Positions 1-29,300 of a DNA stretch of 64,000 bases are shown piece by piece; the first letter of the stretch is position 1, and the number at the start of each line of letters is the position of its first letter. The translations under genes and the position numbers were made by a program. Under the pieces are notes generated by a model, which saw only the letters and a list, made by a program, of their open reading frames with translations, made no database searches and was not told the DNA's origin. This stretch comes from Tetrahymena thermophila SB210 (lineage: Eukaryota > Ciliophora > Oligohymenophorea > Hymenostomatida > Tetrahymenidae): the NCBI RefSeq assembly GCF_000189635.1, contig NW_002476481.1:1054001-1118000 (forward strand), in the 5' to 3' direction.

Positions 1-487
1 AACTAATTTTATATAGTGTTGCAATTTTTATTTAAATATTCTGCTTGATGAAATTTATAAAGTGAGAGATTTTAATATACTATAAAGAAGAAATTATTTT
101 CTATTTAAATTAATTGGATGAAATTAATTTAGCTTAAACAGATATCAAATTACAGTCCTTAAATTATAATATTTGTTCTGAAGTTAAAAACCAAATTAAT
201 AAAAAATTTATTTAAGAAATAGTTGTAAAATTATTTTAATACGAAAAATGAGTAATCAGAGAGTGTGAAGTATTTCTAAAAATGATGATATTACAAATAT
301 ATAATATATTATATAGAATTGATTTACATTTATATAGTGGATGCAATTTTAAAGTTTTTATTTCATTTATGCAAATTATTCTTTTTAAGTGAGCTCAATT
401 ATTTATTTATTTACTTGTTTAGAATTTATTTGATTTATTTGGTAAAGGTTAAGTAACATTCATTTTAAATATAGTTTGTGATTATAA
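1..487. other. AT-rich flank downstream of the RPA large-subunit gene
   Basis: Very AT-rich sequence holding the presumed 3' UTR of the leftward gene that ends at 488. I see no gene, RNA or repeat in it. Confidence 0.6.
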
Positions 488-3027
488 TCAAGGATTGTTT
501 TCCTCAATCACCATAAATTTCTCCAAAGAATTGATGATCTTTTTGGCCTCATAAGCAGGTTAAAAGTCTTTTATAGCATGAATAACTGTCTTATCTCTGG
601 CGTTGCCATTTTAGTCTCTTTCTTATTTAGTAAGTAACAGGAATCTATATTCCTTATTTTAGGCAGCCATAAGCAATTTCTTTTTTGTTTCTGTACCGTG
701 TTCTGTATCTTCATCAGCATATCTAAATACATCACCCTTAACACCTGTTTAATTAATAAGTTAATTAAATATGATAAAAATAAATTAACTTAGTTTAACT
801 TTTAAAAAATAAATTTACCAAGAATTTTTTGACCTACTTCATCGAATGCACTTACCCAAATAGTATCTGTAGAGTCACTTATATTGAGGGAGAGAATATA
901 TCTAGAGTCAGGCTAATAAAATTATTATTTAAAATAAATTCAATTATATTTTAATAAAATTAATTTTATTAACTAAAATTTTAAAGATGAATAAGAAAAA
1001 ATATTACTTCATTAAAATCTTTATTGCAATTTATGCAAGTCCATACTTCGTTATTACGTGCGATTTTCTTTTTGCAACTAAAACAAGCATTATAATAAAG
1101 AGGAGTATCTTTAATGTACATAATTTAACCACGAATTTCTTTCCAAATTTTCATTTCTGGGTCAGTTTAAAGGTTTTTAATTTCTTCTTTCAAAATGTTT
1201 AGAGAAGATTCAAAGCTAGTTACTTCTCTAGGACCAGTATCATTTCCTTATGCCTTTTGAATAGTGCTTAATTAGTCGGAATTTAAGCTTAGGTACCATT
1301 TTTTGACATCATGGATCTATGGGAAGAGTTATTCATCTGGATTCATGAAGATTTATGTTCCATATCCGATATTAATTTACTTTTTATCTTTAAATTCACC
1401 TATTTTGGCATCTTTAAATACAATGATATCTCCCTACTTTGCATCATAGTCTTTAGCAGTTTCTCCCCAGAGTGTGATTTCTGTTTCAATTAGAGATTCA
1501 TCAAATGATATTATGTCTCTTTTAGATTATTATTAATTATCTTTCTTTAAGATCATGGTTTTAACTTCTGTGTCTGCCTTTACAACAACAATCAAATCGA
1601 TTAAATCTCCTTTCTATTTATTCTACATATCTTAAATGAATTATCTATTTAATTTGATCATAGGAATAGATGGATCTTCTTGACATATCAATATTTTACT
1701 CTCTTTATTGACAGTTACAGTGTGATCTCCCTTATTGCTATTTATTAAATATTATGTAATAGTAATTGCTAAAACTTAAATAAATTAATTTACTATTGAT
1801 GATTATTGTTGACTTTCACTGAAAATTATTTCAAGACTATAACTTAACCTACTTTAAATAAGCCATCATACTATTCAGCTATTTCGTTGAAGAAAGAAAT
1901 ACTACATTCGTCTCCAAACTTATCAATAACATCTATTGAAAAGAGTTTTCCTTACTTTTCCTTAAAGCTTTTCAAATCACCCTTTTTGGTGATTCTAACT
2001 TTGATTGTTTATGGTTAACCATTTGGCTATAAGTTTCTAATGTATTCCAAATTTTACTCATCTCCATCAGTAGAAATCTACAAACTAGAATTATTTTTGT
2101 TGTTGCCATTGTTATTATTGTTATTATTATTATTTTGCTTTACAGGTGCAGTTTTGTTCATTTGTTATGGATTCTAGTTTACTCTTTAAATGTTTTAGTT
2201 TGTAACTGCTGGTTTTTAAGCAAATGTGTTATTTACAGCAGGAGTAGGCTTATTTATGTTGCTAACTGGAGGAGTTACCATTTGCTTAGGTTAAGAAACT
2301 TAATTTTATTGAAGTATTTAAGCGTTTCTGCTCAAGTATTATGAGGGAATTACAGTTGATCCTTCTGGATTAGAGAATCCCTTTTATATTTAATTTAAAA
2401 ATTATTAATTTTCAAGAACATATTTTTATTTTTTTGCCATATCTTGAAAACTCCCTTTAAAGAGCATTTTTGATCAAGTAGCAAAGAATAAAATAAATTA
2501 TATAGAACTTTAGAAATATTTTATTACACTTGACTTGTATTATTTGTATTCGATTGGTTTTCCAATTTGCTCTTAGATATTAGAATATATTAATTCGTAG
2601 TTAGAGATAATAATTCTTTCCTTATCGTGGTTTGAGTCATCAATATATTTTTTGCATTTGATAATACAGAGATCCTTCACTATTAAATTATTAAAGTAGA
2701 GTTAAAAATGATAGTACTTTTCCATATACAATTCTTCACAAAAAATTAAGAAAAATTAATTACAATCTTGGCATTTGGTAGCAGCATCACTAACGAAATA
2801 TCCTTTCTTGAATTTGCAAAAGCCATCAGAAATGCAAATCCTATTTGTCAACAAAAAAAAGAAATGAATAAAATTAGTTTTTTTCAATCGATCAATCAAT
2901 TAAATTACTTGAAAAGATTTTCAGCAACAGATTGAGGAGCTTTTAAAACTTGAATAACATACTATTCATCAGGATTAGTGCTATTTATTAGAGAATCAAT
3001 AGCATTTTTTGTTAATTGAGTAACCAT
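488..3027 (-). CDS. RPA1: Replication protein A large subunit (RPA70 family; Rpa1 or its paralog Teb1)
   Basis: Binds single-stranded DNA with OB folds in replication and repair; the Tetrahymena paralog Teb1 does this for telomerase. Exons on the minus strand: 2909-3027, 2528-2840, 1794-2380, 1737-1008, 819-912 and 488-744, 699 residues in all. The N-terminus MVTQLTKNAIDSL matches the RPA70 N-domain start (MVGQLSEGAI in human). A Gln/Asn/Pro linker with an Asn run (RC of about 2100-2135) precedes DBD-A (GKLFSIDVIDKFGDE) and DBD-B (TLWGETAKDYDAKQGDI). DBD-C carries a four-Cys ribbon, CFSCKKK...WTCINC, then RYILSLNISDSTDTIWVSAF. The C-terminus ends in EKFMVIEENNP. Exon 2 contains a 33-nt in-frame GT-AG stretch that could be a further intron, and its match to the N-domain is weak there. 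Human RPA1 has 616 residues. The family is certain; Rpa1 versus Teb1 cannot be decided by eye. Confidence 0.9.
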
Positions 3028-6000
3028 TTTCTTTCACTTATTGGGTTTTGCTAAATTGTATTTTGATTGAGTTTATGAATTAATTGGCAGCTATTTTTAA
3101 CTATTTACTTGTTTTTGCTTTAATAATTTATTATTTTTTCTGAATCAATAAATTTTTGAATTATTAAATGACTATTTTCTTTTGAATAAATTATCTTTTA
3201 CGCGCAATTTGTTATTAAAATTTAATAGATGTTAACTTTTACCTCCATATCTTTCTTTTTTTGAATATATCTATCCCTTTAATTTTACATAGAATTTATC
3301 AAATTTTCATTCTAAGAGGAGGGAAAATGTATTTCTGATCACTTTCATTTTTTTGAGATGCTTTTCATGTTTTTTTCAAATAAAAGTTTATTTTTAAAAC
3401 CCTTCTACATTATAATCTATTTTAAAAAAATATTTTTATATCTAGCAGACGCAAAAATATAGATATCAAACTCTAATTTTCATAATAATAATTCAGCCTT
3501 CAAAGAAAAATAAAAAATAAAGATAAAATAGTTTTATCTCATTCTACAAAATATTCATTTATTTTTATTATGCTAATTTAATTAATGATGTAATTTCATT
3601 TAGTAAAACTAACAAAAAAAATCTTTTAAATTAAACACTTTTATTATTTCTTGATTATTTATTGCTATAATATTTTAATTATGAGCGCTTCTCATAGAAA
3701 ATAATTAAAAGCGCCTAACAAAAAGAAAAAATTAAATTGTTTTCAAATATTTATAAAATCTACAAAATATTGAAATAAAAATTCATTTTAAAGATTTTTT
3801 TGTAAAATATTTTTTTAGTTCAATTCTTATTAATATCAAAAAAAAAGTCTAGAATTTCACCAGTTAAAATTTAGGCTTGAAAGTAAGAATAACTAATTGT
3901 ATTGTTAAATGAATGACACATAGATAATTAAAAAAACAAAATAAATTATCATATTTAGATTGAAAAAAACTTTATTTTATTGAAATTCATACAAAAGTCA
4001 AAAAATTTAAGTTTATTAATTTCAATTGCTATTTTTATTAAAATATAGCTGGAGTTTTCTTTGTATCAAATTAGATTTTATAATTAAAGCTAGAATAAAA
4101 AAATTTATTCTTAGTTTGAGCTAATATTTTTTCTTTAATACAATTAATTAAATCTAATAATGAGCTTTTTTGTTTAATAAATTTTTTATTTTTTTGTTTA
4201 TCTTATGATCAGTCTATAACTAAAAATATCAAAAGAATATAAAAAGCCATTTATTTATTTCCTAGCAAAAAATTATGCGATTTCTAAAAAACTATTAGCT
4301 AAAATTTACTAGATAACATATTTTTTAAACATTTCTTTTGATTTTACTCAGATTTTAAATAAATTTTATAAAATATAATATTATTATCTTTTGATTGACC
4401 CGTTTCATATTATTTTTATTTTGAGTGACGCATAATAGATAAGAAACTCCTGCAGCAAACCTTAAATATTTTAAGTCAAACAATAAATATGTTAAATATA
4501 TGATATTAATTTTGAATAATAAATATCTTCTTATCAAAAAATAACCAGGGAACGAGGGAGTATTTTGTTTTTACCATATGATTTATTACATTCGGCTTTA
4601 GGTGTTAGGTAAATTTAAAAAAAAAAAAAACATATTCAGTCGAACCCTCAAAAAAAATAGATTATTTTTATTAGTGGTAATATCTACAACTAATAGATGG
4701 TTATATTTTGAGATCATATTTAATAGAGAATTCAGTTTTTGAATAATAAACACATATATTTTAGCTTGACTATAATATCTAAGATAAATTCCAAACTATT
4801 TATTTCTAATTTAATTAATATTCATCAATAATAGAAATGATTGCTATTTTATAGAAAGCTTACATTATACTAAAAAATTGAATTTATGCTTATTAGAAGC
4901 TATTATTGCAAGAAATACTGTTTTAAAGAAATATTCATATCAATTTTTTAGTATTATTTTAGATTTCATTTATTATTATGAAATATGAAGAAAATTAGAT
5001 AAAATTTTTTTTTTGACAGTTGGAGTGATGATTTTGAAAATTGAATTACTATTGTAGATCACTTTTTAGAAAAATAATATTTACGTCTTCGAATAGTTAT
5101 TTTTAAGTAAAATCAATTGATCATCTAAAGTTTAAAAATTTATTGTGTTTTACAATATTTGGAGGAGAGATATCTAATTTCCTAAAGTAAATATATTAGT
5201 TATGTGACTGATTTTACATTAATGAAGAGAAAATATATTAAAAATTAGAAAATTTAAATATGATTACTTAAAAGAAATTTATTTGAGGTAAATTTTCTTA
5301 TTTAAAAACTCATTATTAATTAATTAAAACAAGCACTAGTATAAAACACATAGAAAAAACTTATCAAATTAAATTCGCTTAAAACAAAATATCAAAATTT
5401 AGCAATTCAAAGATGTTTATAACTTTACAAATAAATTTGAATCTATTAAAATGATTTATTCTATTTAAGAAAAAATACAGAATTATCACTTTTTTTTACT
5501 CTAGCCATTTTGATTGAAGGATTTTTATCGGAAATTTAATATTTCTATTTAATGGATTGAGAAACAATTTATTTTAAAATTAAAAAATACTTTTTAGTTA
5601 CAAAATAATTTGATAAAAGTTTCAAAATAATTTTAAAATATTTAAATAATCAATTATATTATTATATAAAGTGTAAGAAAATAATTTTTTAGTTTAGAAA
5701 TTATTGATAAAATTCTTTTTTATTAACTTTTGTTACAATTATTAATCAAGCAAGACTCTATTTTTTTTAGTGGATTAGGTACTAATTAAAATTTTAAATG
5801 AAACTCAATATAAGAAAGGAAATTGCTTTAATTTTACATACAATCGGATAGTAAATACATCTCTCTTAAAATATTACAGTCAATTAAAGAATGATACCAA
5901 AACATAAAAACCTCAATAAACAATAAAATGGTAGTAATTAAATTTTAAAAATGAGCAATTTATTTATTATTTTTATGCCAAATTGTAAATAATCATATTT

Positions 6001-8278
6001 AAAAAATGTTAAATAAGATCATTATTACAATTAAAATATTAAAATAAAGACGCTTTTTTAATTTCTATCAATGGAATTATATTATATCTAATATAAAAGA
6101 AAGCCAGAAAGATAATCCAACATCCCCTTATTACCAAATATTAGGTTGATTTAATTATATGCATTAAATTGATTATTGTGAACTTCTTATTGAAATATTA
6201 ACGCATAATCTTATGCTTTCTATATATATTAATTTTACACATTAATTTTTGTGGTTTATTATGCTTATTGAAGATACTATATTTAAAATTATTAATTTTT
6301 AGTACATTTAGTTTATTTATCTTAAAAATACTTTGATTTATTCTTAAATTGGACTAAATAAGAATAAATATTTAGTATTAAACAATTTTATTAAAATAAA
6401 TATTAAAGTAGTTTGTTATTATTTTTATTCTATATTTTAAATGAAAACAAAAAAAGTTTAAGCTATTTCAGATGAGGTAGTAGATCATTGCTAATATTTT
6501 AAAGTTTATGAAATTTAGATAGAATAGATAATTTATATAGAAAAATAAAAATACTTTTAGAAATCTAATAAAATATTAAAATACAATATCTATATTTTTC
6601 TACTTCTAAATAAGTTACGTTATGATTTTTACTTTTAAAAGTTATAACTGAATCATAAAGTATCAACAACAAAAAAAACAAAAAAATATGAAAAAATTTG
6701 TAAAATAAATATTTTTGATCTCTTTATCTCATATATTTAAGTCAAAGCGTGTCAATTTAGCAATAGAAATTTTTTAATAGATGCTATCCATGTAGATTAA
6801 TTTATTTGACTTTTAAACCACTATAATTAATTTTTTCAGGTTTTGTGCACAATCAAATTGTTCAAAATGTTCTACATTTAAAAAGTTGATCACACAAAAA
6901 AGAAAAATCAAAAAATAGCTCAATAACGATAATTGTAAATAGAAAACTATCTATTATAATTTCAAGGTTTTTTTAAATTCAATAATTTAATTAAAAATAA
7001 CACTGAATGCTTTTTAAATGATAAAAAAATTGATTTTGTTACATAGTAAGTTAATTATGTTTATGACCTGAATATAATTAAACTGTTAAAATCAATAACT
7101 TGAAAATAAAATATAACTAAATTCGATTGAAGAGTTTATTTTCTTTTGGTTTTGCGACATATGCAACTTTTGTTCTCTCCCTAATAGAAATTTAAAGAGC
7201 TTACAATAAAATATCATTTAATACTATAAAATATTTAAAAAATAAATTTGAGAACCCTCAAATACTTTATTTTTCATAAAAGTTTTAATTTGTGTGAATT
7301 TTTATTAGAACTCCAAAGAAATAATCATATTTTTTATAACATTTTTTATTCTTCTATAATTAATATCTTAGTTTTTTAATATAATAGCTGCTATAATTCT
7401 TTTTGAAACAGAATAAAGTAGGATCAGTACATCATAGATAATTTATAGGTAGCAAATATACTTTTTCAATGAAATTACTTATGTTTTATTTTTAAATGAA
7501 AGTAATTTCCTCAAAATTCCTGAAGTTTTTATTTATTTAAAAAAATATTTTAGCTAATTTATTTTAGTTTAGAGTAAATTAATACTTATATTCCATGTTT
7601 ACTCATTTAAATAAAATTATTCAATAAAAGTAAAGACTTTCCCTTCTATAATTAATCAGAAAAATTTAAAATAAAAATTGGCTAGCTGGAAAGAAAATTA
7701 GATTAATTTATGGGATTTTAAGAACTTTTAGTTTTATTAATTATTTATTTATTTTCCCTATGTAACTCTAAACTTAAATTTTGATCCTCTTCTCAAAGAT
7801 TTGATCAATTTTCAAACTAACTAAAACATACTCAGATTTTGTTAAGCTATAATAATTTCATATTAACAAACAAAAAATTCAGCTTTTTATTGAGCTAAGT
7901 ATTCGTTTCTATAATATTATTTCTCTTTAGATCTTTTTTTATTTATATTTGTCTTAAGGTAATGCTTAATTATTAATAAATTATCTTATTTTACAAGTTA
8001 CAGTAAAGTTTTTTTTTTCAGTTCTGTGGGTGAATAAAATATATAAATTATTAGAAATAAAACTTGAGGATCTCTAGTTTTTTAATTTAAAAACTTTTCA
8101 AGGGATTGTAAAATCTACCAATAAATGCTCTATTTATTCTTCTACTTTAAATCTAATTTTAGGTAAATTAATGATAGATATTGAATTCTACATTCAACCT
8201 TAATTAACGTGTATAAAAAAGTAATTCTAAAACCTATTTTGTATAAAAAAATAATAATCAAAAAAATAAAACAAACCT
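3028..8278. other. 5.25-kb intergenic region between divergent genes
   Basis: Upstream DNA of both the leftward RPA gene and the rightward Cys-rich gene. It is near 85% A+T with many homopolymer runs. I found no exon-like stretch, RNA gene or transposon. A 6-bp inverted repeat (gcgctt...aagcgc) around 3685-3716 has a loop of about 19 nt and is probably chance. The A-rich bases just before 8279 look like a ciliate 5' UTR. Confidence 0.6.
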
Positions 8279-11200
8279 ATGAAACTTAAAAAAGTACTAA
8301 TTTTACTCACTCTTATAGGAATAGCATACTCGCTAACCTGTAACTCTCCCTAAGTCCTTGATTACGATAACAACACTTGCCTCACTGATGTGTCAGCATG
8401 CGCCAGCAATAGATTTTACAATCCTGAGCTAAATCAGTGCTAAAATAGCTGCGATCTTGGATATATACCTAGTGTAGTTAATTCCTAAAATTAATGTAAT
8501 AAAAAGTTATTATACTGCGACCCCACCACATAAATTCTCTCGATAGGTGCAAATTTTAGTTGCTTAAGCAAGGCTACAGATTGCTAAGGTTTTTTGGTCA
8601 ATGATTCTAATGGTCTTTCTAGTTGCCTCCCTGTTTGTCCTAATGGCTTTACATAAGGAACAGGATCAAATTCAAACATATGTACTTCTAGCTCTACATT
8701 CTCTTGGGTTAATCACGTTTTTACATAATGCTAATAAGGAGTCAGAGATGTCCTAACTCTCTCTTGTTATACCAGTAGATCACAATGTACCTCCTTCTAC
8801 AGCGAAGACAATAGAGCTTGTCTACCTTCTTGTCCTGTTGGTGCCAGCATTTAATAAACTCCTTCATTTTCATATTGCTTATATTATAATTAATAATATA
8901 ATTATTTATTCTCAATTCCATCATGCTCTTCAACTTAAGTATATGATCTCAACTCAAATTCTTGTCTTTAATCTTAAAGCAGTTGCAAAAATTTTGTTCT
9001 GATAGATTCTACTGGATAAAAAGTTTGTTGGCCTTCATGTCCTACACTTGCAGGATGGTAAATCCAAACTTCTGGAACTTCACAGGCATGCATCGCTCCT
9101 ATTGGTTTTGTTTTTGCAAAATAACCTTTCTTTAACTGCAGTTTTCCAAATTACTATGATGCCACTTCATTTGGATGTCTCACAGCTGATACTCAATGCT
9201 AATACTTGATGAACTATGAAAATAATATGTGTGTATTCTCTTGCCCTGCTTAATAACTATATGCTTAATATAACTAATAAAAAAACATTGGATTTTGTTG
9301 GAGATTTTAACTTGGTAATTGCTAATCTCCATCAGTGTATGACTTATATTCTGGTTGGTGTCTATCTTCTTCCTCTTCTTGCTAAAACTATCTCTTACAA
9401 GACTCATTTAACAATCAAGTATGCTGGTTATTTTGCCCTTCTGGTTTCACTCAATCAACCACCACTTCTGGAAGTAAAATTTGCACAGCTCCTAGTGGAT
9501 ATAATATACTCAAATAACCTTACTTTAACTGCCCTTCACCCTCACTAAAAGATGCTACTACATTAGGATGCATAACAGCAACCTCATGTAAATTTAGAAT
9601 AGTTTATGAATGGTAGATGTGCATTCCTTAATGTCCTTAGTCATTTATTGAATACGCTGATCCAAGTACTTCAGCAAAATTATGTAAATATTAAGACAAC
9701 TATGCCTATAAAATTGCGTAATGCGGAAATGGGTTGTATTTAGATATTAATTCAAACTAATGTCTATTAAACGACTCAGATTGCTCATACGTTTTGATAA
9801 AAGATTCAAATGGCGCAAGAGTTTGCTGGCCTTCCTGTCCAAATACCTATACTGCATCAACCTCTGCTTCTGGATAAAAATTATGTACTCCTCCTTCTGG
9901 AACATCTCTTTTATCTCAGAAATTCTTTTAATGCGCTCCGCCTTAAGTTTATGACATAGCTTCAATTGGTTGTCTTAATTAACCAAGTAATTGCTCCAAC
10001 AAATTTATATCTCAGCAGAGAACTTGTGCTTTAACTTGTCCAGCTAACTTTTAATAATTCACTGATTAAACTCACAACATCACATAATGTAATGATCCTA
10101 ACTAGGGAAATACAGAATAAAGATGTTAACCACCTTCCTACTTGGATATCAGCTCTAATTAATGCTTAACAAATGACAGTGATTGCTAATTTTACTTGAT
10201 TAAAGACTAATATGGAGGTAGATTATGTTCCCCATATTGTATGTCTACATATTCCTCTTCAACTTCTGCATCTGGACAAAAACTATGCACTCCACCATCA
10301 GGAGTAAGCATATTTTTATCTTCCTTCTTTGAATGTCAAAACCCATAAGTAAGAGACGTAACAACTCTCACCTGTTTAAGTTCTGCTTCATCCTGCACTA
10401 ATTATATGGTTTATAACTTTTGGACATGTTTCAATACCTGCCCTCCAAATATGACTTCAGGAGTAGATTCGGGAAATGGTTTGAAAATATGTAATAATAA
10501 TAACAATAACAATAATGGAGGCAATAATTATTAAATGGCTAGCTGTACTGCCCCTTAGTATTTACATTTTAATGCAAACAAGTGTATAACTAATGACACT
10601 GATTGTTAAGATTACGTAATGACAGATTCAAACGGGTTCAAACTTTGTTGGCCTGTTTGTCCTTCTGGATTCACATCTGGTTAAGATGCTAAAAATGGAT
10701 TTTTAACATGTACACCAGCAGCTACAGTATCTTTGAAAGACTCTAAAATATTTAATTGTGTGCCCCCATAAGTACAAGATGTTACTAGTCTGGGATGTCT
10801 AACTGCTACATCTAACTGTACTCAAATTATGGTTTAAGATAGAAATTAATGCGTCTCTGTATGCCCATAAGGATATATATTTGGAACTGATTAAAATAAT
10901 AAACCTAACTGTTATTTCAGAAATATATCATAATGTCAATCAGCATAAATATGGAATTTAGCTTAGAACTAATGTATTTCTCCATCTAACTGCAAGGATT
11001 GGGTAATTGTTGATGCTAATAATTACCAAACTTGCATTCCATAGTGTCCAACAGGTTTTACTACAGGAATGGATTCAACAAACACTTATAAGACATGCAC
11101 TGTCCCTTCAGGAAAAAGTTTAAGTAACTTTGGTTTAAGTAATTGCAATAATCCTTTGATCAGAGATTTTGTAAGTGGTGCTTGCTTTACTCAAGCTTCA

Positions 11201-14200
11201 TAATGCAAAGGATATTTGGTTAACTAATTCAATTGTGTATCTACCTGCCCAAATGGATACTAATAAGGAAAAGATTAAAATAATAACAACACTTGCTACA
11301 TGCCTTATGTTTACTAAATGACTAATTGTTAAGGAACCAGCTTTTTAAGATTTTCATAAAATGATTGCATTAATAATGATACAAGCTGCAGCGAGTTTAT
11401 TATTAAAGATGCTAATGGATAAAAAGTTTGTTGGCCTAGTTGCAGTTTAACAAGTTTTACATAAACTTAAGATGCATAATCTGGAGTTTCATACTGCACA
11501 CCACCCTCAACTTGGTTATTAAAAGATTAACCATTTTTCAACTGCTAATCACCTGGTGTAGGAGATATAGATACCTTTTAATGCTTAACAAATAGTAGTA
11601 ATTGTACATCTCCTAAGCTTATTATAAAAGATAGGAATTAGTGCAGTTCTGTTTGCTTAGATGGGTATTATATACAGTAGGATTAAAATGGAACTGTAGC
11701 TTGCTTCAATCATGGACGTCCATCATGTTAGTCTGGTTAAGCAATAAATTTCCTTCTAAACCAGTGCATAAGCATAAACTCTTGTAAAGAATATATTTAC
11801 AACGCTCCTTAAATTCCTAGCTGTATACCGGACTGCCCTTCTTCTTGGGTAGTTGGTTAAGATACTGTAAATAATGTTAAGACATGCAACCCACCATCTG
11901 GATCTACCATACTTAACTACAAGATTAATAAATGTGGCTAACCCCTTGTTAAGGACTTTACGACAGGTGGATGCTTAAATTCATAATCAAGCTGTTCAAA
12001 ATTACTTGTTAATGAATATAACTGTGTCAATTCCTGTCCTAACGGATATTAATAACAAACAAATCAAAATGGGTAAGCTGAATGTTATTAGCCTTACGTT
12101 TATTAAATGGAAAACTGTTAATAACCTTCATTCCTCTAATTTAGTTAGAATCACTGTATTTCTAATGACACTGATTGCAATTAATTTGTAATGGTAGATT
12201 CTGCAGGAAATAAAGTTTGCTGGCCAGTTTGTCCAAGCTAATTTACCTCCTCAAAAGATCCTAATACAGGTGTTAATTATTGTAAACCACCTTCTACTTA
12301 TTCTCTAACTTCTGCTCCAATTTTTAATAACTGCAATCCTCCCAATGTTTGGGATGTTACTACATTAAATTGTTTATCAGATTAATCTAAGTGCACTTAA
12401 ATTTTTGTTCCTTAAAGAAATTAATGTACAAATGCATGCTTTGATGGCTTTTCTTATAATATTGATAGTTCTGGAAGGCAAACATGTTAGTAATCTGGAT
12501 TTGGGCCTTAGTGCAATTCAACCTAAGTATAAAATTATCTATAAAATAATTGCATAAACATTTCTTAATGTAAAGATTATTTACTGGCAATTTCTAATGG
12601 TTAAGGTTAGCAAGGGTAATTATGTATTCCAGATTGTCCAAATATTTTCGTTAAGAGCACCAATACAGGCGGTTAAAATACATGTACACCTCCAAGTACA
12701 GTAAACATATAATAAATTGGTCTCAGTAATTGCGGTTAACCATAAGTAAGAGATTTTTCAACAGGTAATTGTTTACCATCTTAATCAAAATGCACAGGAT
12801 TTTTGGTTAATGGTTTTAACTGTGTTTCAGCTTGCCCTAATGGATATTAATAAGGTACAGATTCTTCCACTGGTTATAAAATTTGTACAAATCCAAATGG
12901 TAATAACAATAATAGTGGAAATAATGGAGAATGTTAGTAAGGATAATTAAGAGATATATTACATAGCTAGTGCGTTAATCCTTAAGATTGTAAAGGTTTT
13001 TATTTCCAAGTTCCTAATGGAGGTGGTTTGGTTTGTATGCCTTAATGCCCAAGCGGTTTGCTTATATCATACAATCCAACATTAAATCTTCTGTAATGTG
13101 TTGTTCCTCCTAATTTTAATTTTTCATAATTAGCTATTAGCAGTTGCACAACAATAAGAGATTTTACAACAGGTGGTTGCCTCACTAGCTGCTCTTAATG
13201 TAATGGAGTGTGTATTGCTAGCTAGTCAATGTGCTTATCCTATTGTCCTACAGGTTTTTATAAAACAACAGATTCTAATGGAAACAATATCTGTTAATAG
13301 AGTTCTAATAGTTAAAGCTCATAATGTGGAAATAATTATATTTTAGATATAGCATAAGGATACTGTATTCAAAGTTCTAACTGTAAAGGATAGATTATAA
13401 CAGATTCAGCAGCAGTTTAATATTGCATTCCTTTCTGTCCATCATCATGGTAGGCATAAGATGCTTCAGGCAACTCTACATGCATAGTACCAAAGAGTTT
13501 CACTTATAGCAGCAGCGCAGCAGCTAGCTGTTAAAGTCCAAATACTATAAACACAGATGACTTTACTTGCTTATAACCTGGTACAAAATGCAATGGTTTC
13601 TTAATCAAAAGAAGTAGAGTATGCTTACCAAGTTGTCCAAGTGGATTTAAAAAATTTATAGATCCTAAAACTGGTGAAAAGTAGTGTCTTTAAGTTAATA
13701 ATGATGGTAGTCTGAACTGCGAAATGCCTCTAATCAGTGATTAATTAACAGGGTTATGTATATATGCTGATTAGTGTAAATACATTCTTTTATAATCTAA
13801 TATCTTACTAATATGTATTCCTTAATGTCCTAGCGTTTTGATATCTGGATAAGACTCAAACCTTGGCATCCCTAATTGTTCTCCAGCTTAAAACTAAAAT
13901 ATTTTAAACCTTCCATCATCTAACTGCTCACCTCCTAATTATAAAGACTACTCCACTGCAAACTGTTTAACATCTCCTACTTAGTGCAAAGGATTTATTA
14001 TTCAATCATTCAATATGTGTATATCAATTTGTCCATCAAATTGGAGTTAAGTTGCAAATTCTGCAGGATATAATGAATGTGTTCCTCCTCTTATTTGCTA
14101 ACCTTCTTAAGTTCCTGATACAGCAAATAAAGTTTGCCTAGATAACGTGTCTTAATGTAAAGGAGTTCTAAATAAGTAGACATTCACTTGCGATGCTTCA

Positions 14201-16951
14201 TGTCCTACTAATTTCTCTACTGTTACAGATCCAAATTTAAATATTAAAGTTTGCATTCCATGCTAATATAAAGATAGCGCTGGTAATTGCTATAGCTAAT
14301 GCCCATATCCACTAGTATCAGTGGCTTCTGCTTCTGCAGGATAACCTGGATCCTGCTTAAGTGACCCAACGCAATGCTCTGGTTACTTTACATCATAGTT
14401 AAATACTTGTGAAGCCTAATGTAGATTTGGATTCACTCCTAATATTATGACTTCACCAAAAACATGTATATCATGCACTGCTTCTAATACATGTAACTAG
14501 CAGAATACCAATTAGTGCAATATGAGATTATCAGCTGACAAATCATCTTGCTCAAAGGATTGTCCAAAAGGTTAGATTCCACTTCCTCAAGTTGCAAATT
14601 AAAGCTACTAATAATGTTAAGTATGCCCATCCTCTTAACCTTTTGTTAGTGCAGATGGAACTTAATGTCTAGCTATGTGTGGTGGAAGCTATGTTGCTGA
14701 TTCAAACTCTAAAAGCTGTATTGATCCTTCTATTTGCTCAGGTAATTTATCCACAGATTCTAAAGGTATACAATGGTGTACTCCTAACTGTCCTTCTGGA
14801 TAATCTCCTGTTAAAGATGCCTCTACAGGATTTAATGTATGTCAACCTTGCTCATCAGGTACTTTCTTTGATCCCATATAGAATAAATGCATTAATTCGT
14901 GTACTTTAATGGATGCTACTTAAAGCTATTGTTTAGTAAGTATAAACGATTGTAACGGAAGCATTTCAGTTGATTAAACTTAATGTCTTCTCAAATGTCC
15001 TTCTGGATAATTTTAGAGACCTCTTACTTAAATTAATTAGTTTTAATGTGTGACAGCATGTGATTAAAATGAATTAGTTTATAATAATATGTGCTTGTTA
15101 TTTTGCCCAAAGGGATTGTTTACAGATTTAAAAAATAAAGTTTGTACAACTGTTAAACCTTAATGCACAGGGGTTATTTCTTTTGATGGATAGCTCTGTC
15201 TACAATCTTGTCCTCAAGGATAATACCCAGCTACTTCTACTAATGGTTAACCACCTAAGTGTAGTAAATGTACCTAGAAACTTTCTTCTGATGGCAAATC
15301 TTGTTCTGCTAATTGCGCCTCAGGAGAAATGTATGATCTTGACATCTTCTAATGTGTAACTTAATCTTCATGCAAGAGCAAAATAGCTCAGCCTGATGGA
15401 TAAAGTTGTTCGAGCAGTTGTCTTCCAGGTTAGATTTTAAGTACAAACGGTACTAATTAATCTTGCTTAAATAGCATATCAGATTGCAAGTAGTTAGTAT
15501 CTTCTGACTTCAAGCAATGTGTTTCTGCTTGCAACTCTGGAGAGGCATAAATCAGCGATGGACCCTTAACAGTTTGCATAATTTGCCCACTAGCTGTTAG
15601 CTCTGATGGAAAATCATGCCTAAATTCATGTCCTTCAGGAACTTTCTTAAAAGTCAGCAGTTAATCCTGTGTAGCTTCTTGTGCTTCTGGAGAATTCGTC
15701 TCAGCAAATGGAAAAAATTGTGTTAGTTCCTGTGTTTACCCAGATCTTAAAAGATCATCTGATAACAGTAAATGTTATACTTCTTGTGAATCAGGAAATG
15801 TAATTGACAAATCATTGGGTTGTATTACTCCAAGTTAATGTAAATCAAATAATAAATATATTTCAAGTGATGGATAATCTTGTATAGATGATTGTTCAGT
15901 CTTTTTAACATACATTGATCCAAATAATGCAAATACTTGCAAGGCCTGCAGCACAAATACTTTTGCAAGATTAGATAAAGGTAAAATAGTTTGCCAAGCT
16001 TATTCTGACAATGCTGCCTCTGATTTATCCGTATAAGCAACTACTTTGACATCGCAATTTACCAATTTATCAGCTATCACACCTGAAATGAAAGGATAAA
16101 TTAAATCATAAATTTAAAGTATTTCAGCTGGAATAGAGTAAGCTATTCAACAAACTTAGACAAGTATAACTTTAACTGATACACAAAAGTAATAGCAAAA
16201 AATTTAACTAGTTGAGAATATTTAAAATATTGGAGCTTTATTCCTTTCTAAAATCGATAGTTCATCGTCTAGCAGTGAAAATTCAGATGCAAATAAGTTA
16301 GTTTTAGGAACTAATGAATATTAATTTGTTGCTGAAAAGAAAAAGAAAGGCTTTGTATTCTAAATTTCTTTCAATTTAGCTAATTTATCAACAGCTGATC
16401 CAAGCTTTTAATAAGATTCTAGCCAGTTAGATTTAACTAAATAAGGTTCATAGATTGATGGATCTATTGCCTCTATGTCTGTTACTAACTAAGCATCCAA
16501 TCCGTATTGTTCTGATAGCAGTACATGTTTAGCTGGGCTATTTTCAGTAAGTGCAACTAAGACAAGTAGTAGTAAAAGATTCTTAGATTCCACTTCAACT
16601 TCAAGCTCTAAATTCACACTAGTTTACAACGTTCCTGCTAGTTAAATATAGAAAACTGTATGTGTGACTTATGATACTACTACCAATGCTATGTCTCCTT
16701 CTTTGTCTACAGTAATAGATACTACTAATAACCAAATCACCTGTACTTTTACTTAAAATAATTCATTATTTTATGATAATAACTGTTCTATTGTAAGTGC
16801 ATCACTATGCTCATCAGGTACCTCTAGTAACACGGGTGGCAATAATAATAATAATAACAATGGCACAACTTAATAAACTGTATCACCTTCGCAGAGCAAT
16901 AAAATTATATTTTCATTTATTTTACTAATATTTACTACTCTTATTTTGTGA
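8279..16951 (+). CDS. Giant Cys-rich repeat surface protein, signal peptide and GPI-anchor signal
   Basis: A single open frame of 2890 codons with no intron; ATG 8279 and TGA 16949-16951 are in frame. The start MKLKKVLILLTLIGIAYS is a classic signal peptide. The last residues (KIIFSFILLIFTTLIL) form a hydrophobic tail ending at the stop, preceded by a Ser/Asn-rich segment, which is the GPI-attachment pattern. From about residue 20 to 2580 it is a chain of Cys-rich modules of about 60-80 residues with recurring CPSGF/CPNGY, VCWP.CP and C.TPPS motifs, grouped into longer units of about 265 residues (see findings). Residues about 1990-2580 are furin/EGF-like Cys pairs (SSDGKSC, CPSGTF). Residues about 2590-2850 are Cys-poor. 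Ciliate immobilisation antigens share the secreted, Cys-periodic, GPI design but are far shorter. It probably forms part of the cell coat. The exact function is unknown, and I do not recognise a named family. Confidence 0.85.
9000..12850 (+). repeat. Higher-order tandem repeat, period about 795 bp, inside the Cys-rich gene
   Basis: Landmark strings recur at near-constant spacing. The VCW-P-CP coding string (aaagtttgttggcc and variants) lies near 9018, 9811, 10641, 11420 and 12211. The agagatttt..acaggtgg-type string lies near 11163, 11952 and 12750. The aactgtgt..tgccc..ggatatt-type string lies near 11221, 12009 and 12808. Spacing is 779-830 bp, about 265 codons, so each long unit holds three to four shorter Cys modules. 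Copies are diverged at the DNA level and no copy looks recent. Confidence 0.7.
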
Positions 16952-18259
16952 AAGCAAAAAATATCAAGAAATATATTTTATATTATTATATTAGTATTTA
17001 CTTTTTACTTTTATGGGTATTTCATATTAATTTTTTTATTATATTTTATTACCTTCTTTACAACTTATAATTCTTTTATCATACAATTTTACCTATGTAT
17101 TATTTTTTGAATATTATTAATAAATACTACTCTATCTTTCTTTTTATTATCTACTTATTAATTTATACAATTTATTCTATTTATTTATTTATTTATTTAT
17201 TTATTATTTTAATTACTAATATATAAATCGACCTATCTATCTATCAACATATCTATCTATATATTATTTTATAATTATATCAATAGTTAAATAAAATAAA
17301 ATTTAAATAGAACTTCCAGATTTTAAATTTATGTGGATATGGAAGCTTAAGAATTTAATAATTAAATTTACTCTAAAGTAGAATAGTCGAATAAATAATA
17401 TTATTTTAAATCCTTGCTTTTCTATTTTTTAATTTGAATATCTAATTTCAAATATTAAATTTTATAAAACAAATAGATTTATATTTTATAATATTTTTTT
17501 TAAGGATTAATCATTTTTGAAAAGAAATATTAAATATTTAAAAAACAAATAATTACCAAGTTTTTTTACATAATAAATTTTGAAAAAATTATGCAAATTT
17601 TAAAGAGTGGTGTCTGGTAAAAAATACCTTAAATTTCTTGTAGAGGTAGAGTTCCTATTTAACTATATATTTTGCAAAAAAATATTTTACCTTTTTTATT
17701 TATTAATATTTTTAATAATAATTAAATTGGGAAAAAAAATAAAATAAAATAAAAAGATGTATTCTCTCATTAGCAATTAATAGTGTAAATTAATTTTTAC
17801 TGATTTTTACTTAGGTTTAATGATCTCTCTATATTGAAGCGAATCAATCACTTGCTCTCTTTTAATAAATCAATAAAATTTTTTATTATAGAAAATATTT
17901 TAATGAAGGATCAAAAGTATTATAATTTTCTTATTTCAAATTTTTTATTATGTAAGCATTAATTTATCGTTAAATTAACCATTTATCTATTTTTAATAGA
18001 AATGTTAAGCCAAAGAAATTTATTACATAGAAGATATTATTTAATTGATTAATTATTATCACTTCGCGGTATTAAAAATTAAATTTTGAGTTTTTGTTTC
18101 ACTAATTCAATTTAAAAATATTTAAATTAGAAATTTAATTTGATATTCATCAATTTTTAGTACTTTAAATAGCTGCGTATTTACTGACTTTCTCAATTAT
18201 CAATTCAGAAGAAACTTTATATTTAAATAATATACTAAAAATATATTTTATTTTAGCTA
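16952..18259. other. Intergenic region with simple repeats
   Basis: AT-rich DNA between two rightward genes. It contains a (TTTA)n run near 17171-17207 and an imperfect ATCT-type run near 17230-17262. I see no gene in it. Confidence 0.6.
17171..17262. repeat. Simple repeats (TTTA)n and (ATCT)n
   Basis: A tetranucleotide TTTA run of about nine units is followed, after a short gap, by interrupted ATCT units. Both are ordinary microsatellites. Confidence 0.8.
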
Positions 18260-26391: not shown

Positions 26392-29300
26392 TCAATTTTC
26401 TTCAGAAGCATTAGGCTTGAATAAGGGGTATTTGGCTAAGACGCTATCCCAAGTAATGAGACCATCAGCCAAATCACTGACAACTCTGAATACATCGTTA
26501 ATCTTTTATTTAAAATTTTTAATAAGAAAAACTTTATTATTATTATTTTAATTTTTACGGGAATTCTGATTTATTTAGTGGTAAGAATTTCTCTGAGAGT
26601 AACTGAATCATCAACAAGAGTATCATTATCAATAGTAATACCGAAGGGAATACCTAATTCGTCGGTTCTTGCATATCTTCTACCAATGGCATGACCAGTA
26701 TCGTCAACCTTAGAGCTAACACCAACCTTAGTCAATCCAACCTCTATAAAATAATTCATTTTAATAAATTAATTTATATAATTTATAAATTTAATCAAAT
26801 TAAACAATTTTTATTTAAATTAATAAATCTATAAAACAAAATCTTACTGAGTTTGTGAATGGCATCATTGTACTTTTCATGAGAAATAACTGGGAGGATA
26901 GAGCATTTAATTGGGGAAATCTTAGGAGGTAAGTGGAAGAAAGTTCTCTTTTCATCTCTCATTCTGAAACTATGTTCCAAAATGGCAGAGAAGATACGAC
27001 CAACACCGAAGGAAGGTTCGATGACGTAAGGAACGAACTTTTCTTCTTATTGCATTTATTCAGAAACCTTGAATGAAATCAAAGCCTTGGGGAGTTGAAC
27101 CTTCTTTTCAACTTCTTTAACCTTGATGTCGAATTCAACTGAATCAGCAGTTTCGAACTTCTTCATGAGTTCTGCCTTTTGTTCATCACTGTAACCTTCA
27201 ATAAGTTTTGTGAGTTCATTACCATCACCCTTCAAAGCCTTGAAGATTTCCTTCTTGTCTAAAGTAATATCAATAATGGTAACCTTTCTTGGTTCAGGTA
27301 AACGTCTGGCGGCTAAGAGCTTGACACCAGAACCCTTGGTGTGACTTTCTAAATCGAAAGCAGATCTGTTAGCCAAACCAACACATTCCTTGAAACCGTG
27401 AGAGAATTCGATTTCAGCATCCCAACAGTCACAAGCGTAGTGAGCCATTTCATTAGACATGTGTTGTCTAAATCTAATATTATTTTGATTAACACCAGCC
27501 TCGACTAAGAAAAGGAAAGTTCTTCCAATGAAATAAGCGTGTGTTTCATTAGAAACAGTACCAGACTTAACAGCTTCTTCTAAGGTCATTTGAGTAACAG
27601 AACCATCACCGTGTTCTTAGCTCTTAGCAGTCAAAAGAGGTAACTTCAAATCCTTGACATACTTGAACTTAGGATGTTCGGGTCTCTTAGGATCAAAGAA
27701 ATGTTCAATTTCAGCCATATCGAATTCTCTAACTCTGTAAAGACCATTTCTAGGAGCGATTTCGTTACGGAAACCCAAACCGATTTGGGCAGCAGCGAAA
27801 GGAATTCTACCACCGTTGAATTCATTTAATCTATTGAAGTTAACGAACATACCTTAAGCGGTTTCAGGACGTAAAAAACCTGGCAATTAACCAGAAGGAC
27901 CAATAGGAGTACCAAACATGAGATTGAAAGGTTCAGGGAAACCAAGTTCATTACCAGTATCAGGAGATTTTATACCTAACTTTTGGATGACATCATGCAT
28001 TTGTTGAGCTGAAAAAGTTTCAACCTTTTGCTTAATTTCTTCCAATTCCTTGACTTCTTCAGGTTTAAGTTTCTTCTTGGAGAGTTTAGCTTCAATGAAA
28101 GCTTCAATCAATTTGTCAGCTCTGTGGCCAGCACCATTCTTAACATCCTTAACCATCAAATCAGTGAATCTATCAACATGACCCTTTATTATTAAATTAT
28201 CAACTTAGAACAATGAAAATGATCCAATGAATAGTTTTTAAAGTATTTTTCATATAAGTTATTAAAATAGATTTTTATTAACGAAAATAATTTATTAAAA
28301 GTTTTATAAAAATAATTTTTAAATGTTTATTTTAATTATGTGTTGCATCAATTTATTTAATTAGTAAAAAATGCTTATTAAACAAAACTTTGATTCTAAA
28401 TCTGATTAATATCTTGCTTGCTTGAGGATATCTTTAAAGTTTATTTATTTATTTTTGATGCTGTAATTTAAATAAAAATATCTAAAGCGAATTTTCTCTT
28501 TTGTTAAATTTTAGAAATCTATTTATTGAGTTTTAGTTCTATTTAGAGGATTTTGATTAATATCTAAATCTACTTACTTAGTTTCGATAATGATATATTT
28601 TTGCTTGTTTAATGTCAAATTCTTTTAAAAAAATCTTGATATTTATAAATTTTTTACAGAAGCCTTGAAAACGGGATAAGGGGTAATACAAGTTGATGAT
28701 ATTTCGAGCATATCTTCTTCCAAAATGAAGTGTTCTCTCCATAACTTCAACAAGTTATTCTTGATGGCGCAACCTTATAAATAAATAAAAAAAAATATGT
28801 TATTATTTGTATGTAATCATCTATTTAAGCTGAAATAAAAATAAAATGGCTCTTCTTTTGTTTTAAAATAATTTTAGAAGTAATTTAAGGCCTTAATCTA
28901 GTTTGTGTTATGAATATCTTTGATTTTTTATTTCCTATTTATTTTGCTTATTCATTTTTGATTTTTTGTTCAATAAGTGAAAATTTAAGTATGAAATATT
29001 ATCTAATTCATCTATCTTAAAATAATCTATTTCTTAGATTTTATTGTTGAACTTTATTTAGTTACATGTTTGTTATTTACTATGTTTAAATTCTTCTTCC
29101 TAAACACCTTAAAGGCTTTTATACTAGAAGCAAATAATTTTGAAAATTATTAATTTTAATTACCAGGTGGACCATAGTCGTAGAGACCAGCAACACCACC
29201 GTAAATTTCAAAACCTTGGTTAAAAAAGTATCTTCTCTTAATCAAGTCTTCGAAATACTTTCTTCTTTCTTCTAATTCCTATAATTTTAGTTAAAAAAGC

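Follow-up and report, generated by a model that had tools for sequence, protein, structure and literature searches.

The surface antigens of Paramecium are proteins of 250–300 kDa (PMC12113882), which are anchored by glycosylphosphatidylinositol (GPI), have periodic Cys residues and in some cases display internal repeats (PMC12113882, PMC9788069). The window analyzed here is a stretch of 64,000 nucleotides (nt) of the Tetrahymena thermophila genome (contig C81, bases 1054001–1118000). An open reading frame (ORF) at positions 8279–16951 encodes a protein that resembles these antigens: it has a mass of 313 kDa, regular Cys spacing, internal repeats and, judged by hydropathy, a GPI-type end. Unlike them, it shows no match to the Paramecium_SA domain above chance, it carries a hierarchy of dyads and blocks ahead of a family body, and no repertoire of array genes was found. 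As Paramecium antigens reach 250–300 kDa (PMC12113882), giant size is not new among ciliates, and the first-pass annotation was mistaken in calling the protein several times larger than known ciliate immobilization antigens. The observation of a giant Cys-rich protein with nested repeats is otherwise confirmed, with its anatomy corrected.

Tetrahymena has immobilization antigens of its own, the Ser proteins. SerH and SerL are smaller than the 313-kDa protein, which is far longer than the Ser antigens and has in addition a Cys-poor C-terminal domain (this is a comparison of size and layout). SerH, SerL and SerJ are similar to it in having Cys blocks of 55–100 amino acids (aa), with six Cys per block in SerL, a GPI-type tail and tandem relatives (PMC4136848). 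The Ser Cys pattern, i.e. 6 Cys within 120 aa, also describes the module spacing found here; the pattern is loose and alone fits 4925 of 24725 proteins, and together with a GPI predictor (FragAnchor) it gave a list of 216 candidates (PMC4136848). The gene may be among these 216 under another name. The list includes a 3751-aa candidate, TTHERM_01098980, which may or may not bear on the gene at 8279–16951.

Furin-like or growth-factor-receptor (GFR) Cys-rich domains (PF00757) are a third point of comparison, and GFR Cys-rich domains are among the top seven domain types in Tetrahymena species-specific genes (PMC6564038). The likeness would lie in the predicted module fold, and one paralog scores above the Pfam cut-off; the differences are a strict alternation of two module kinds, A and B, over 14 pairs (dyads), and a score of the giant itself below the cut-off. 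MTA, MTB and MRC1 of T. thermophila are likewise large surface proteins and contain GFR Cys-rich domains, but they have five membrane helices, whereas the present protein has a GPI-type tail and no evident membrane helices. A literature search joining Tetrahymena, furin-like, GPI and surface found nothing.

Module, dyad and block in the repeat array

The window is AT-rich and only the ciliate code (table 6) yields long frames. Under this code the ORF starts with the ATG at 8279 and stops with the TGA at 16949–16951, and TGA is found nowhere else in frame. The 2890-aa sequence contains 254 Cys (8.8%). Its features, all on the plus strand, are as follows.

8279–16951, plus strand: complete gene (2890 aa and a stop codon, read with the ciliate code)
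8279–8338, plus strand: signal-peptide-like start, aa 1–20 (hydropathy >1.6 in windows covering aa 1–22)
8339–8497, plus strand: lone B-like module, aa 21–73 (Cys pattern; 20.4 bits with the B profile)
8516–14080, plus strand: array of 14 A+B dyads, aa 80–1934 (12 Cys invariant in 14/14)
8516–10492, plus strand: dyads D01–D05 (adjacent dyads are most alike, D02/D03 and D04/D05)
10544–11296, plus strand: 263-aa block, copy 1 (D06+D07)
11327–12085, plus strand: 263-aa block, copy 2 (D08+D09)
12116–12886, plus strand: 263-aa block, copy 3 (D10+D11)
12932–14080, plus strand: dyads D12–D14 (D12 B module with two extra Cys)
14096–15994, plus strand: family body, Cys-rich portion, aa 1940–2572 (common to the genes on contig C17)
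15995–16810, plus strand: Cys-poor C-terminal domain, aa 2573–2844 (helices followed by strands in a low-confidence prediction)
16811–16948, plus strand: N/G/S/T-rich spacer and hydrophobic end, GPI-type by hydropathy, aa 2845–2890 (layout shared by paralogs)

The array consists of six-Cys modules of ~66 aa, of two kinds in alternation. Cys residues are spaced 13, 7, ~14, 4 and 16–17 in A and 13, 7, ~11, 4 and 16–17 in B, with some variation. One A and one B module together make the basic unit, a dyad of ~132 aa that is present 14 times; with the lone B-like module the array totals 29 six-Cys modules. (A regular expression for the Cys pattern found 34 modules and the D12 B module was added manually; dyad borders were placed manually from first to last Cys, and the 14 single dyads were aligned.) Matching the protein with itself gives a top lag of 134 aa, followed by 263 and 266 aa. 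The regular modules and these lags agree with the earlier description of Cys-rich nested repeats in a single frame, and the lags that correspond to the unit of ~265 aa then proposed are present, behind the stronger one at 134. However, that description had two layers of duplication, module and block, and overlooked the dyad layer between them.

The mean non-Cys identity of the dyads over 91 pairs is 27.6%, versus 17.6% (standard deviation 5.5) in Cys-keeping shuffles, with only 3 of the 91 pairs above the maximum of 1820 shuffled pairs. A modules score 53.1–83.6 bits and B modules 45.6–69.2 bits with profiles that these same modules had built. The case for a common origin of the dyads is built on their mean identity, on a register that stays fixed and on these profile scores. 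Tandem Repeats Finder gives 27 rows in the window and none inside the ORF, as expected of copies this diverged.

Between D06 and D11, dyads two apart display 41, 39, 42 and 43% non-Cys identity and dyads four apart 45 and 46%, whereas neighbouring dyads are less alike (34, 27, 29, 26 and 32%). The dyad tree groups D06, D08 and D10 with support 91/92, while D07, D09 and D11 share one unresolved group with D12–D14. Thus a 263-aa block is present three times, at 10544–12886. Upstream, it is adjacent dyads that pair most closely, D02/D03 with 39% identity (tree support 88/87) and D04/D05 with 45% (85/81), and the repeat unit there is therefore the dyad. The ~265-aa unit is real as this block, but it has three copies only, and the main unit of the array is the dyad. 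The landmark strings earlier seen every 779–830 bp are also found, as a 61-nt family with five members (8983, 9781, 10603, 11386 and 12175; spacing 798, 822, 783 and 789). Upstream, this landmark misses D03 and D05, which have changed the stretch concerned. Since 7 of 11 inner branches of the dyad tree are open, the division of the dyads into two subtypes (74/82) counts as a tendency. A tree of the modules, from 33 rows and 56 columns, has 4 of 30 inner branches starred and was left out of the order of events.

The D12 B module (13145–13294, aa 1623–1672) is the sole B module with two extra Cys; these are close in sequence and could possibly form an added disulfide. An N-D-S/T sequon is found at one same loop in the A modules of D04, D05, D06, D08 and D10 (9722–12235). 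A heavily N-glycosylated array was also considered but finds no support in the sequon count across the array, 26 versus 35.1 (standard deviation 5.0) in shuffles.

Dyads that share a residue use the same codon in 48.2% of cases over the 91 pairs, versus 47.2% expected under synonymous saturation from the gene's own codon usage. The array is therefore old and without ongoing homogenization; its copies have aged while the Cys scaffold was kept. This codon identity rules out recent homogenization of the repeats, and it gives substance to the earlier remark that the blocks are well diverged.

The G+C content per 300 nt is 0.25–0.39 in the ORF, versus 0.13–0.20 in the flanks (6801–8300 and 17001–18200). 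No 60-nt window with six or fewer G+C lies inside the ORF, versus 372 across bases 1–8000, and it contains no AT-rich stretch from GTA to AG whose length would keep the frame. This base composition and the lack of an intron-like stretch support, at the level of genomic sequence, the intronless single frame first proposed. A wrong gene model would make the frame several genes or one with hidden introns; however, the Cys periodicity is regular all along the array, the ORF has no intron-like stretch, and the related genes described below are likewise single frames, so that such an error is very improbable.

A four-gene family and the ends of the protein

The last 956 residues of the protein are homologous to three tandem genes on contig C17. 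The genome searched comprised 101 Mb in 445 contigs; its counts are lower bounds, with the best candidates alone scored, and its identities count TAA/TAG glutamine codons as mismatches, so that the self-match is 92%. A search with the whole protein yielded, besides itself, six stretches on C17, the three longest with 34–37% identity and the rest with 32–48%. A search seeded with a C17 paralog recovers the same four genes. Two of the C17 genes consist each of one frame, 1038 and 1013 residues long, and the remaining one is partly N. The three ~1000-aa genes lie in tandem at C17:1899654–1919019 (L016–L018), and the first is broken by a run of 5718 N.

An alignment with the two complete paralogs runs from the first modules of the body to the Cys-poor domain and on to the tail. 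By this homology the last 956 residues correspond to a body that four genes have in common, and the other three members of this family are without the array. The first-pass annotation overlooked this family; the paralog search it proposed, made within this genome, finds the three tandem relatives. A second copy of the array was not found in the genome: aa 401–1540 matches only its own gene in 5 of 5 scored candidates. The array B profile gives 26.9–37.8 bits on the first two modules of the paralogs, versus ≤15.4 bits in 40 shuffled proteins; thus the array and these first modules probably share an origin.

The C-terminus shows a polar spacer, followed by a hydrophobic stretch that lacks a basic tail. 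Both ends look as first described, a signal peptide and a GPI-type tail, on hydropathy alone, and the same hydropathy mark is passed by two inner stretches of the protein. We infer that the protein is probably GPI-anchored. The alternative is an unanchored protein, secreted as part of a matrix or granule; disulfide-rich arrays are found in secreted proteins too. However, the C17 paralogs have kept a hydrophobic end of this kind, likewise with no basic tail, and this reading is improbable.

Predicted fold and proposed role

The best explanation, with a probability of roughly 55%, is an old, disulfide-stiffened, GPI-anchored stalk protein of a coat or contact, in which a layered array stands before the family body. 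It draws on the observed frame, layers, saturation, fixed Cys and paralogs, and on a predicted dyad fold; GPI attachment, surface location, rod shape and a coat or contact role are what we infer beyond these. The protein would be secreted to the cell surface of Tetrahymena and held there, probably by a GPI anchor. The family body would form a Cys-rich stalk, a Cys-poor membrane-proximal domain and a GPI-type tail, and the 29-module array would lie between signal peptide and body in this gene alone. Growth would have proceeded in layers, from module to A+B dyad, then to two subtype tendencies, and then from one two-dyad block to three copies. If each dyad folds as two disulfide-locked furin-like modules, the array would make up a long and stiff stalk, holding the N-terminus away from the membrane, in a coat or contact-making role.

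The AlphaFold model of a dyad is confident and similar to receptor furin-like modules, and two such disulfide-locked modules per dyad are predicted from it. PF00757 (cut-off 26.8 bits) gives 13.9 bits on the body of the giant and 30.4 on the paralog P0002, with no match in the array or P0003. Among single dyads PF00757 matches 5 of 14 (best E = 0.0077), and Fer4 matches 3 of 14 (down to E = 0.0061). A genome search with PF00757 yielded no matches and is uninformative, the paralog that passes the cut-off being missed as well. The whole protein shows a single, chance-level match in Pfam (E up to 1) and none in a PDB sequence search. TIM9, the sole dyad match in a PDB profile search (E = 0.034–0.035), was judged a coincidence of Cys spacing.

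A variable immobilization antigen, i.e. one of a set of mutually exclusive serotype proteins with the repeats as variable epitopes, would share the Cys periodicity, GPI-type tail and size of the Paramecium antigens, the Ser Cys pattern with the six Cys per block of SerL, and the tandem arrangement of Ser genes, which the C17 relatives display. In opposition to this, no second array copy was found among the best candidates scored, and the repeats are saturated and not homogenized. PF01508 (Paramecium_SA) matches neither the whole protein (E up to 1) nor its two parts (E up to 10), and across the dyads it matches 1 of 14 at E = 0.13; a genome search with it had no matches, its controls being equally silent. 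This alternative is unlikely. The earlier proposal of expansion for antigenic change is unsupported for similar reasons: no second array copy among the candidates scored, old unhomogenized copies, and 12 Cys fixed in 14 of 14 dyads. Its other suggestion, selection for length, is possible. By analogy, the protein is best read as acting like a giant ciliate coat protein rather than as an established member of a named antigen family.

Another alternative is a contact or recognition receptor for pairing, feeding or substrate, in which a GAIN-like domain would sit by the membrane and the furin-like array would provide the reach. The C-terminal domain may be GAIN-like, which is no more than a lead: its model has a pLDDT of just 44.5, the same Z is attained by unrelated sandwich proteins, and hhalign gives a probability of 0.8%, with 5 of 200 shuffles scoring equally high. 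Foldseek with this model matched nothing at E = 0.001, and GAIN was not among the 50 matches listed, which at pLDDT 44.5 is uninformative. A PDB profile search with the domain gave a best E of 0.36, and no relative came out of a scan of viral contigs that used the C-terminal alignment. The GPS profile (PF01825) does not match the last 320 aa at E up to 10, and its 8 places in the genome are all outside the four-gene family. The five membrane helices of MTA, MTB and MRC1 are not evident here either, and a receptor of this kind is rather unlikely. GAIN/GPS literature with ciliates had nothing tied to this gene among the matches listed. Two places in the genome, L020 (C97:518350–518469) and L021 (C298:7192–7311), have an identical GPS motif stretch and diverge on both sides, possibly a duplicated exon.

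A combined version is quite unlikely. It would make the protein an adhesion-receptor-like ectodomain on a lipid anchor, with a 14-dyad furin-like stalk over a strongly diverged GAIN-like domain. A short family body would have acquired the array just after its signal peptide, by amplification of the first modules of that body, and would thereby have come to the size of the Paramecium antigens along a separate route.

Neighbouring frames and significance

A Pfam scan of 10 neighbouring frames gave matches in 5 and none in 5. The matches are two RING-like (one below cut-offs), a kinase, a class II tRNA synthetase and a kelch protein. The class II tRNA synthetase core is at 26798–28213 on the minus strand; TAA/TAG glutamine codons number just 6 in 472 aa, which suggests a highly expressed gene.

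Giant surface proteins are known in other ciliates, and the stalk protein preferred here would be an uncommon architecture within this known class. Antigenic variation as a driver gains no support. The gene is a readable record of layered protein growth by module, dyad and block, and the short relatives without an array in the same genome are natural controls for what the array contributes. If Tetrahymena has a surface protein of Paramecium-antigen size without the domain of those antigens, giant proteins may have originated repeatedly in ciliates, and a tractable organism could then be used to probe the purpose of length.
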